A stretch of DNA of 32,362 nt from Bacteroidota bacterium (GTDB lineage: Bacteria > Bacteroidota > Ignavibacteria > Kapaibacteriales > UBA2268), in contig WRLB01000016.1 in the NCBI GenBank assembly GCA_009777815.1, positions 1-32,362 of the forward strand. The letters are read 5' to 3'. Under the pieces are notes generated by a model. The model was not told where the DNA came from and did no database searches. It saw only the letters and a program-made list of their open reading frames with translations. The position numbers and the translations under genes are program-made. Below, piece after piece: positions 13,090 to 32,362 of this stretch (positions are counted from its first letter, which is position 1; each line of letters starts with the position of its first letter).

Positions 13090-13237
13090 ATATTCCTCTA
13101 AATAAATGATACAAACTAATAAAATAATAACACAAAAATAACTTTTTTAAATAACAAAACGTGTTTTTTTACTTTATGAATATATTTTAAATAACATTTT
13201 CTTTGTCATGCTGAATTTATTTAAGCATCTCATTTAA

Positions 13238-13257
13238 CACGGGGATGAATCCCCGTG
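13238..13257. repeat. CACGGGG palindrome
   Basis: CACGGGGATGAATCCCCGTG. Confidence 0.9.
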
Positions 13258-15006: not shown

Positions 15007-15142
15007 TACCTGTAAATTATATTAGAAAAAAATTTAAAACTATATAAATATAACATTTTTTTATAAAAAAATGTATATACAAAAAAAATAAAAATATTTT
15101 TATTTTATAAGTGTTAACTTTTTTACACACAAATCTAAATAA

Positions 15143-15256
15143 TGTCATACAGAACTTGTTTCGGAATCCCATAAAGTTGTTAAATACGAGTAAAAAGTAG
15201 CACGGGGATTAATCCCCGTGTTAAAGGAGATGCTGAAACAAGTTCAGCAGGACAGA
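15143..15256. repeat. Composite dispersed repeat: outer inverted repeat, inner 21-mer, inner palindrome
   Basis: gtcatacagaacttgtttcggaatccc...agttgttaaatacgagtaaaa...CACGGGGATTAATCCCCGTG...ggagatgctgaaacaagttcagcaggaca. Confidence 0.9.
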
Positions 15257-15284
15257 AAAATTTGTTTATTTCATTTAAAAAAGT

Positions 15285-18448: not shown

Positions 18449-18600
18449 TGCCATACTGAATTTATTTTGGCATCTCCTTGTTTAATAAAGGGATTCCGAA
18501 ACAAGTTCGGTGTGACAGAAGCAAAAATTCGGTTATTCAGCAAGGGGGCAAGCCCCCTTGTTAAAATAACGATTGTTTAACACGGGGGCTTGCCCCCGTG
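18449..18600. repeat. Dispersed hairpin repeat followed by two 20-bp palindromes
   Basis: catactgaatttattttggcatctcc...gggattccgaaacaagttcggtgtgaca; CAAGGGGGCAAGCCCCCTTG (18541-18560); CACGGGGGCTTGCCCCCGTG (18581-18600). Confidence 0.9.
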
Positions 18601-18603
18601 CTA

Positions 18604-18729
18604 TTTTACTCGTATTTAACAACATTTTACTCGGACTTAACTAATTTTTACTTATTCTTAACAACTTTTTGCTCGGAATTAACAACTTTTTGCTTGGACT
18701 TAACAACTTTTTGCTCATTCTTAACTAAT
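18604..18729. repeat. Tandem array A: six consecutive 21-bp units
   Basis: Units: ttttactcgtatttaacaaca / ttttactcggacttaactaat / ttttacttattcttaacaact / ttttgctcggaattaacaact / ttttgcttggacttaacaact / ttttgctcattcttaactaat. Confidence 0.95.
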
Positions 18730-18798: not shown

Positions 18799-19024
18799 GT
18801 AGGATTTCCTCCTCATTAGGTAGGATTTTCTACTCATTGGGTAGGAAATCCTACTCATTAGGTAGGATTTTCTACTCATTAGGTAGGAAAACCTACTCAT
18901 TGGGTAGAAAAACCTACTCATTGGGTAGGATTTTCTACTCATTAGGTAGGATTTTCTACTCATTGGGTAGGAAAACCTACTCATTAGGTAGAAAAACCTA
19001 CTGGTTTTGGGAGGTAATCCTACT
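18799..19024. repeat. Tandem array B: about ten 21-bp units plus a degenerate end unit
   Basis: Units gtaggattttctactcattag / gtaggaaaacctactcattgg etc. The 14-bp inner element GTAG....CTAC is a near-palindrome; the linker TCATTRG is constant. Confidence 0.97.
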
Positions 19025-19077
19025 AATTTTTTAATGAAAAGTATTTGTCATTTTGCACTTATTTCGGCATCTCTTAA

Positions 19078-19197: not shown

Positions 19198-19953
19198 ATG
19201 AAAGCAAAATATTTATTATTAATAATTTTTATATTCTTTGCATTTGGAAGCATAGAAGTATTTTCGCAAAATCTCTCGCTTCCAAAAATTTCATTAGGAG
19301 TAGATGAAACAAATAACTCGCCACAAGAATTTTCAACAACTATCCAAATACTTTTAGTACTTACTGTTCTTACGCTTGCTCCATCAATTCTTGTAATGAT
19401 GACTTGTTTTACGCGTTTTATAGTAGTATTTCATTTTTTAAGAACGGCTTTGGGAACTGCTACTCAACCGCCGAACCAATTACTTACCAGTTTTGCTTTG
19501 TTTCTTACTATATTTATTATGCAGCCCGTATTGAATGAAGCAAATGAAAATGGTTTGCAACCTTATCTAAATGACGAAATTACGCAATCGGTCGCTATTG
19601 ATAATATGATGTCACCATTTAGAGATTTTATGCTGAAACATACAAGGGAAGAAGATTTAGGACTATTTATTAAACTAACAGGCGGCGAACAACCTAATTC
19701 TATTGAAGATGTATCTATTTGGTCTATTATTCCTGCATATACAATCAGTGAATTAAAAATTGCTTTTCAAATAGGTTTTCTTATTTTCATACCTTTTTTA
19801 ATGCTTGATATGATTATTGCATCTACTCTTATGTCGTTGGGGATGATGCTTTTGCCACCTCAGATGATATCTCTTCCTATTAAGGTTTTGTTATTTATTT
19901 TAGTAGATGGCTGGTATTTAATTGTAGATTCATTAATTAAAAGTATCGGTTAA
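19198..19953 (+). CDS. fliP: Flagellar type III export apparatus protein FliP
   Basis: SILVMMTCFTRFIVVFHFLRTALGTATQPPNQLL; IIPAYTISELKIAFQIGFLIFIPFLMLDMIIASTLMSLGMMLLPPQMISLPIKVLLFILVDGW. Confidence 0.96.
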   Translation: MKAKYLLLIIFIFFAFGSIEVFSQNLSLPKISLGVDETNNSPQEFSTTIQILLVLTVLTLAPSILVMMTCFTRFIVVFHFLRTALGTATQPPNQLLTSFALFLTIFIMQPVLNEANENGLQPYLNDEITQSVAIDNMMSPFRDFMLKHTREEDLGLFIKLTGGEQPNSIEDVSIWSIIPAYTISELKIAFQIGFLIFIPFLMLDMIIASTLMSLGMMLLPPQMISLPIKVLLFILVDGWYLIVDSLIKSIG

Positions 19954-19996
19954 ATATTTTATTATTTCATTCTGTTATGCTGAACTTGTTACAATT

Positions 19997-20839
19997 TTAA
20001 TATGTTCTTATTCCGCCTGTCCAATATTCTACTTTATCATTGATAATTTGAATAACACCGATACCATATTCTTTTGCTTCTTTTATTGCGTCTTTATCAA
20101 AACTTGCTCCGCCAATACCTAAAATTATCTTATATTTTGCAAACTCTGAAAAAAGTTTTCTAAAATTATCTACTTGTTCTGTTGCAAGTTTAATAACATC
20201 TTGTATTCGGACTCTGTGCTTTGTTTCAATGAGGGAAATAGTATCGCAATTAGTTAAAACTATATCAAATTCACCTTCTAAATTAAGTGATTTTATTTTT
20301 TTATGTTTATTTATTTCTATGTAATGAAATTCAATTCCTGCGAATTTCATATCTTTTTCTAATGAATTATAAATCATTTGTTCTGCTGCAATTCCATTGG
20401 AATCGGCGACACCAGCGATATTGCGAGTAAGTTCTTTTATTTTTTTATTCGTTTCTGCGGAATTTTCTTTTATTTGTCTATCAGTTTCGGCGGATCTTTT
20501 ATCTGCCGCTGCAGCCATCTCTTTGATTTGTTTGTCGGTTTCGGCAGCCCTTTCTTTTATCATTTTGTCGGTTTCGGCGGATCTTTTATCTGCCGCTGCA
20601 GCCATCTCTTTGATTTGTTTGTCGGTTTCTGCGGCTCTTTCTTTTATCATTTTGTCGGTTTCGGCAGCCCTTTCTTTTATCATTTTGTCGGTTTCGGCGG
20701 ACCTTTTATCTTGTGCTACCTGCATTTCTTTTAATGATTTTTGGAATCTTGTATTCTCTTCACTTATTTTGATATTCTCTTCACTTATTTTAAGAATTGC
20801 TTGATTAATTCTATCAAGTATTGTGTTATTATCTGTCAT
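19997..20839 (-). CDS. Hendecad coiled-coil protein with C-terminal PD-(D/E)XK-like nuclease domain (DUF3782-like)
   Basis: Repeated (K)xIKERAAETDK units; then GEFDIVLTNCDTISLIETKHRVR (D...ExK) and KIILGIGGASFDKDAIKEAKEYGIGVIQ. Confidence 0.75.
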   Translation of the reverse strand: MTDNNTILDRINQAILKISEENIKISEENTRFQKSLKEMQVAQDKRSAETDKMIKERAAETDKMIKERAAETDKQIKEMAAAADKRSAETDKMIKERAAETDKQIKEMAAAADKRSAETDRQIKENSAETNKKIKELTRNIAGVADSNGIAAEQMIYNSLEKDMKFAGIEFHYIEINKHKKIKSLNLEGEFDIVLTNCDTISLIETKHRVRIQDVIKLATEQVDNFRKLFSEFAKYKIILGIGGASFDKDAIKEAKEYGIGVIQIINDKVEYWTGGIRTY

Positions 20840-22535: not shown

Positions 22536-22558
22536 TTATATAAAATCTTTAAAAAATT

Positions 22559-22748
22559 GCTCTATTTTATGGGGTTATTTCTCTATTTAGTCGAGTTATT
22601 TCTCTATTTTATGGGGTTATTTCTCCATTTATCGGGTAATAACTCCATTTTATGGGGTTATTTCTCTATTTAGTCGAGTTATTTCTCCATTCAGATTGCT
22701 AATAATTCTATTTTATGGGGTTATTTCTCCATTTTATGGGGTTATTTT
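22559..22748. repeat. Tandem array C: about nine units of 20-21 bp
   Basis: Consensus CYATTTTATGGGGTTATTTCT, with variants ctatttagtcgagttatttct, ccatttatcgggtaataact, ccattcagattgctaataatt. Confidence 0.93.
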
Positions 22749-30783: not shown

Positions 30784-30803
30784 CACGGGGGCAAGCCCCC
30801 GTG
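30784..30803. terminator. Palindrome between convergent mreC and LRR gene; possible bidirectional terminator
   Basis: CACGGGGGC-AA-GCCCCCGTG, 9-bp GC stem in the convergent intergenic gap; same family as the other CACGGGG palindromes. Confidence 0.5.
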
Positions 30804-32067: not shown

Positions 32068-32136
32068 AATAATATCTATTTAATTAACTTTTACAAAAAT
32101 AACTTTTTTTTTCTAATTTCCAAATTTTTTGTTTTT

Positions 32137-32362
32137 TTAATATATTCTAATTCCTTCTGTAAAATATTCAACATTTTCGGTAGTTACTTTGATTACAGCG
32201 ATGCCCTTCTCTTTTGCTTCTTTCTCTGCTTCTGCATCAAAAAAAATGCCACCGACTCCCAAAATTATATTATAATTCTCGTATTCTTTGAAAAGTTTTC
32301 TAAAGTTTTCTAATTGTGTTGTTATAAGTTTTAATATATCTTTTTTTCGGACTTGGTATTTT
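32137..32362 (-). CDS. C-terminal part of a second nuclease-like paralogue of the 19997-20839 protein, cut by the window edge
   Basis: Manual translation: ...KYQVRKKDILKLITTQLENFRKLFKEYENYNIILGVGGIFFDAEAEKEAKEKGIAVIKVTTENVEYFTEGIRIY*; parallels HRVRIQDVIKLATEQVDNFRKLFSEFAKYKIILGIGGASFDKDAIKEAKEYGIGVIQIINDKVEYWTGGIRTY. Confidence 0.8.
   Translation of the reverse strand, partial: KYQVRKKDILKLITTQLENFRKLFKEYENYNIILGVGGIFFDAEAEKEAKEKGIAVIKVTTENVEYFTEGIRIY

Follow-up and report, generated by a model that had tools for sequence, protein, structure and literature searches.

A 21-bp unit stands alone inside a dispersed hairpin repeat and recurs at the head of a tandem array, array A, elsewhere in the same window (the whole stretch of DNA analysed, 32,362 nucleotides). 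Has the array grown from such a single copy? The lone unit, at 15175-15195 (-), is AGTTGTTAAATACGAGTAAAA, and its reverse complement, TTTTACTCGTATTTAACAACT, equals the first unit of array A (18604-18624) save for the last base. The first-pass annotation had described this match one base further to the left, at 15174-15194. The exact 20-mer has two sites in the window, 15176-15195 (-) and 18604-18623 (+), and none in 100 dinucleotide shuffles. A CACGGGG palindrome was said to adjoin both places, and it does so, at 5 bp from the single unit (15201-15220) and at 3 bp from array A (18581-18600). A GAACTTGTTTCGG-type repeat had likewise been placed beside both. This is correct for the single unit, which is flanked on either side (15144-15170 and 15226-15254), but not for array A, where the nearest such repeat (18490-18517) lies about 90 bp off, with two palindromes between it and the array, and has no counterpart on the side away from the palindromes. 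Within array A, unit 1 is the dispersed single unit, and units 2-6 depart from it at 3-6 of 20 positions. The features of the window are collected in Table 1.

Table 1. Repeat features of the window, with their positions and strands.
Feature	Position	Strand	Remarks
Left REP-type hairpin of dimer, GTCATACAGAACTTGTTTCGGAATCCC	15144..15170	+	Tag (GTC) outward; family statistics from 190 copies
Single array-A unit, TTTTACTCGTATTTAACAACT	15175..15195	-	Unpaired in centroid fold of composite
CACGGGGATTAATCCCCGTG palindrome, hairpin within REP-dimer spacer	15201..15220	.	198 sites genome-wide, <=1 mismatch
Right REP-type hairpin, GGAGATGCTGAAACAAGTTCAGCAGGACA	15226..15254	-	Tag outward; pairs with left hairpin (DNA fold)
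Degenerate REP-type hairpin upstream of array A	18450..18477	+	
REP-type hairpin, partner of 18450-18477	18490..18517	-	Tags outward
CAAGGGGGCAAGCCCCCTTG palindrome	18541..18560	.	Start-to-start 40 bp before next palindrome
CACGGGGGCTTGCCCCCGTG palindrome	18581..18600	.	Immediately 5' of array A
Array A, six 21-bp units	18604..18729	+	Units at 18604, 18625, 18646, 18667, 18688, 18709
Array B, ~11 units of 21 bp, GTAGGA(TTT/AAA)CCTACTCATTAG	18799..19028	.	Sequence unrelated to A, period equal
Array C, ~9 units of 21 bp, ATTTCTCTATTTTATGGGGTT	22556..22747	.	Same 21-bp period as A, unrelated sequence
REP-type hairpin (13205-13231) and CACGGGG palindrome (13238-13257), without A unit	13205..13257	.	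Commoner, unit-free form
CACGGGG palindrome without A unit	30784..30803	.	

At 18541-18600 and at eight-odd other loci, two GC-rich palindromes have their starts exactly 40 bp from each other; these pairs are probably copies of one composite. A 228-bp direct repeat (19995-20222 and 32135-32362, 71% identity) has its second copy at the window end and its first at the end of an ORF of 280 aa, which contains coding repeats of 33 and 87 bp. Judged by eye from its translation, 19198-19953 encodes a FliP-like flagellar export protein, which would be unusual if the host is Bacteroidota-like. No Rfam family matched the window over its gathering score, and a known RNA family was rejected.

The repeats on both sides of the single unit are of REP type. 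Over 190 copies they carry a GTC tag (G85 T88 C69; TGTC in 97, CGTC in 11), A-T first pairs, an 8-bp stem (AT-TCCGAA / TTCGGA-AT) and a 5-nt loop (CTTGT), with flank frequencies of A81 T97 and A97 T95; the scan required the core, and the independent evidence comes from the outer stem pairs only. After the final AT follows a tail C-Y-C-C (C84, T58/C31, C72, C63). Since the tag is TGTC and not CGTC, and the tail CYC and not CCA, we call the repeat REP-like rather than a CGTC REP. Among 54 pairs of copies no more than 150 bp apart, the tags point outward in 37, inward in 13 and in the same orientation in 4. When 15141-15262 is folded as DNA (-22.7 kcal/mol, z -6.5, a stability reached by 0 of 200 shuffles), the REP halves form a 13-bp stem, the palindrome an inner hairpin, and unit A stays unpaired in the centroid. 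The element is a REP-type dimer, in which two outward-tagged hairpins enclose a spacer with the palindrome and one unit. The single unit at 15175-15195 is part of that spacer. The REP core is patchy across the family (96 in the genome G007, 64 in G016, 0 in several), and the CACGGGG palindrome, with 198 sites in the host at up to one mismatch and 0-1 in each of 60 relatives, is essentially confined to the host genome. The Y1 transposase/RAYT domain (PF01797) gave 0 matches in the host genome, which is 73% complete, and was found in control genomes; within that portion there is no candidate gene for mobilisation by a RAYT.

How often do unit and palindrome occur together? Unit A has 35 matches at up to 3 mismatches in the host assembly (1.94 Mb in 121 contigs, 73% complete), against 0 for a reversed-pattern control; counts in 100 related genomes lie at control level, with 0 in the same-genus genome. 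With a looser unit model, 30 unit-A clusters were located in 0.83 Mb of host stretches. The palindrome lies within 10 bp of 11 of these 30, every time at the 5' (TTTT) end and never at the 3' side, whereas random intergenic placement yields 0.2 such clusters on average and at most 4. At the 11 loci the palindrome is followed, after 2-8 bp, by one unit (seven loci), two, three, four or six. The palindrome-unit module is scattered over the host genome. The first-pass annotation had proposed to search for such loci with one, two, three or more units, and had named the lack of any further pairing of the 21-mer with the palindrome as the result that would speak against it. The 11 paired loci settle this point, and their ladder of 1, 2, 3, 4 and 6 units links the tandem to the dispersed forms, as had been supposed. 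The idea that the element normally contains the unit did not hold up: an A unit stands within 10 bp of only 11 of 74 CACGGGG palindromes, and the 63 without one indicate that it is an optional part. At L054:6846-6927, two A units lie 63 bp (3 x 21) apart with the palindrome between them, as if filling unit slots in register.

The ladder leads back to the origin of array A. First units beside the palindrome differ between loci by 2.5 of 20 positions, while distal units of the palindrome-adjacent arrays differ by 3.9 of 20 from their own first unit and by 4.3 from first units elsewhere. By these figures the palindrome and the first unit behave as one scattered module. The remaining units look older, or as though they had formed or joined separately. 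When units were shuffled among arrays, within-array similarity gave p=0.0004 with the C5 array and p=0.6 without it, so the homogenisation signal is due to the C5 array alone, which has seven near-identical (homogenised) units and no palindrome. Another A-unit array without a palindrome is found on contig C11. The number of units does change: the composites on contigs C5 (7 units) and C52 (4 units) have in common a flank of 74 bp, with 99% identity to the query in each case, and both arrays run into this 74-bp sequence and then into the same second array, which makes them copies of one composite. Of the in-situ expansion that had been proposed for array A, the ladder and the differing unit numbers of C5 and C52 stand, whereas the diverged distal units (3.9 of 20) and their chance-level similarity (p=0.6) tell against it. 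Nor is array formation special to the A module, as many unrelated sequences form arrays of 20-23 bp, most of them without a palindrome. Within the explanation that we prefer as a whole, and with no more assurance than it deserves, we take the units of array A not to be mainly recent copies of the palindrome-side unit.

The intergenic DNA of the host is a mosaic of non-coding modules that were repeatedly copied and joined, as shared partial composites show. At 12 places CAATTATATAATTG arrays with differing numbers of units come after the anchor TCTGTTGTTTAAGCGATTT, and at one place a different array does; homologous composites with this anchor differ in their numbers of 20-bp units. A 15-mer leader, AATTAGTAACGTTTT, has 70 copies genome-wide at up to one mismatch (control 6, relatives at background) and stands immediately 5' of arrays from several unrelated families (e.g. 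L052:5859, L056:19125, L067:12113, L069:9532). A-like units are joined in register to a REP half at L063 13250-13343 and L106 13952-14016. We read this as mosaic DNA of the REP/BIME type, in a variant not known before. The leader is itself tandem in places, at 21 or 42 bp, and at L069 9528-9732 it is present, inverted, at both array ends. At L099:15290-15727, a second array (AAACTTAATGAATTG) is bounded at both ends by A-type units in inverted orientation, which resemble terminal inverted repeats.

A further property is common to arrays of unrelated sequence. Tandem Repeats Finder, run on 0.43 Mb, reported many arrays of 20 and 21 bp. We then counted self-matches of intergenic DNA (15 of 16 bases equal) by lag. 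In 113 kb of pooled intergenic DNA, lags 20-23 accounted for 1732 matches, lags 10-19 for 2 and lags 24-39 for 12, counts that include overlapping windows and are therefore densities, not independent events; shuffled intergenic DNA gave 2 matches over all lags. Matches fall at 20-23 and its multiples and next to nowhere else, and a second, later sample agrees. In coding DNA nearly all matches are at multiples of three, and a coding origin of the intergenic arrays was rejected because periods of 20 and 41 bp keep no frame. The array statistics cover about 0.82 Mb of stretches, ~42% of the assembly; grouping by shared 9-mers gave 11 clusters, some merging visibly different units, and at least ten unit families. 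Almost all the tandem arrays, regardless of unit sequence, have a period of 20-23 bp, roughly two helical turns. Intergenic tandem repeats in bacteria are usually ascribed to slippage, which gives no reason to favour one unit length. A literal phrase search of the open-access literature found no description of periods restricted in this manner. A small sample of the same-genus genome, 11 kb of its intergenic DNA, contained no arrays of this kind. In G007, from the same family, there are several unrelated 20-21 bp arrays and others near 16 bp, and G016 has 7-bp-based arrays; given the arrays of G007, we do not claim that two-turn arrays are exclusive to the host species. Two adjoining, mutually unrelated 21-bp arrays are seen in G007 at L249:13937-14225.

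The explanation that we consider, on balance, the best is that the single unit belongs to the spacer of a REP element within a mosaic of two-turn duplications. The two REP hairpins, tags outward, form a long stem, with the CACGGGG palindrome as an inner hairpin and unit A as an unpaired stretch between. Pieces of the mosaic some two turns long would be tandemly duplicated and lost repeatedly, which would give the arrays of 1 to ~13 units with the observed period of 20-23 bp, and array A would be one family among those formed. Such duplications might result from replication slippage or from template switching, at sites rich in hairpins and free of selection; the limit to two turns may come from a step that depends on helix phase or has a fixed length. 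The ladder on the constant side of the palindrome, the C5/C52 flank, the REP anatomy, the fold of the composite, the lag analysis, the TCTGTTGTTTAAGCGATTT composites and the REP-half fusions all count in its favour. Two points count against it. Slippage alone predicts a broad spread of periods, making the two-turn restriction an added step, and distal units in palindrome-adjacent arrays differ as much from one another as from those at other loci, which means that expansion at these arrays was old or did not happen in place.

Other accounts of the common period have to be weighed. A process of the lineage, either an enzyme or a constraint of chromosome structure, might generate or retain tandem duplications only for units some two turns in length, whatever their sequence. 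We regard this as possible but rather unlikely; were it true, the palindrome-unit modules would be its seeds or products, some of them begun at the conserved 15-bp leader. The main rival to slippage or template switching is selection for protein sites on one helix face, the arrays being rows of sites for dimeric DNA-binding or nucleoid proteins set two turns apart. This would fit the 20-23 bp period shared by unrelated sequences, the dyad symmetry of units in some families (ACTGCTTAAGCAGT, TGTATAATTTTATACA, CAATTATATAATTG), the stems with p<=0.05 in 9 of 43 arrays against about 2 expected (related arrays counted more than once), and the presence of arrays in divergent promoter regions (13 divergent, 22 tandem, 5 convergent). 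Nevertheless, the units of array A lack a dyad (stem 2, p=1.0), the very many unit sequences of a 1.9-Mb genome would need many proteins, and arrays near promoters are not enriched beyond the promoter share of intergenic DNA, and we consider such selection unlikely. With 9 of 43 arrays at p<=0.05 and none in array A, a general hairpin rule for the units is unsupported, and a general role as tandem terminators was rejected because arrays are also found in divergent regions.

Doubtful, too, is a reading of the composites as non-autonomous mobile elements (MITE-like, or dependent on a single-strand transposase) by which ready-made arrays reach new sites. The same composite does occur in scattered copies, and the inverted A units at L099 and the inverted leader at L069 resemble element ends. 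These inverted ends belong to single loci, however; the ends of the composites are not constant over the set, no target-site duplication was established, and no Y1 transposase (PF01797) was found in the 73%-complete genome. Finally, a recent in-situ expansion of the composite's single unit as the source of array A is improbable: the ladder, the identity of the first units of the 2-unit and 6-unit arrays to the single-copy unit, and the unequal C5 and C52 copies are what it would leave behind, but the distance of distal units from their own first unit, the chance-level within-array similarity and the A-unit arrays without palindrome (C5 and C11) oppose it.

Whichever step would restrict the two-turn duplications of the explanation preferred here, at least ten families at 20-23 bp in two separate samples make it possible to test what determines the length of a repeat. 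The ladder, and near-identical composites differing in unit number, are ready loci for addressing it. The interest of the system thus lies in the period restriction more than in the single unit itself.

Among known systems, heptamer and other short prokaryotic tandem repeats (PMC6344855) are similarly intergenic, with a recurring period in unrelated sequences, and the 7-bp kind is present in G016; the host arrays differ in that their period is 20-23 and neither 7 nor 14 gives a signal. Borg tandem repeats (PMC9879509) also comprise many unrelated intergenic arrays per genome, often near 20 nt, and are virtually absent from other genomes examined. Borg units are perfect, A-rich and of variable length (PMC9879509), whereas those of the host are imperfect, in many cases belong to dispersed composites, lie on bacterial chromosomal contigs and have a period of 20-23 bp only. 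BIME-type mosaics of GTAG REPs with RAYTs are, like the host DNA, multicopy intergenic mosaics of palindromes and linkers; the host repeat has no GTAG tag, and a RAYT (PF01797) was not detected in the 73%-complete genome. In anatomy the element resembles CGTC-tagged REP dimers, in which HH dimers (tags outside) predominate, HT dimers are rare, and spacers of 20-100 bp may hold a small stem-loop (PMC3733652). These dimers, found in Bacteroidetes and Chlorobi and having no dedicated transposase (PMC3733652), are matched by the stem of 8 bp (8-9 bp in the CGTC class) with A-T first pairs and a 5-nt loop (4-5 nt in the class), of which the core but not the outer pairs was set by the scan, by spacers of tens of bp that may carry a small stem-loop, and by the mostly outward tags (37 outward, 13 inward, 4 same orientation). 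Only GTC of the terminal CGTC tag is common here (TGTC 97, CGTC 11 of 190), and the tail is C-Y-C-C instead of CCA. The host element also differs from these dimers in its spacer, which carries a species-specific GC-rich palindrome together with a 21-bp unit that is arrayed elsewhere.
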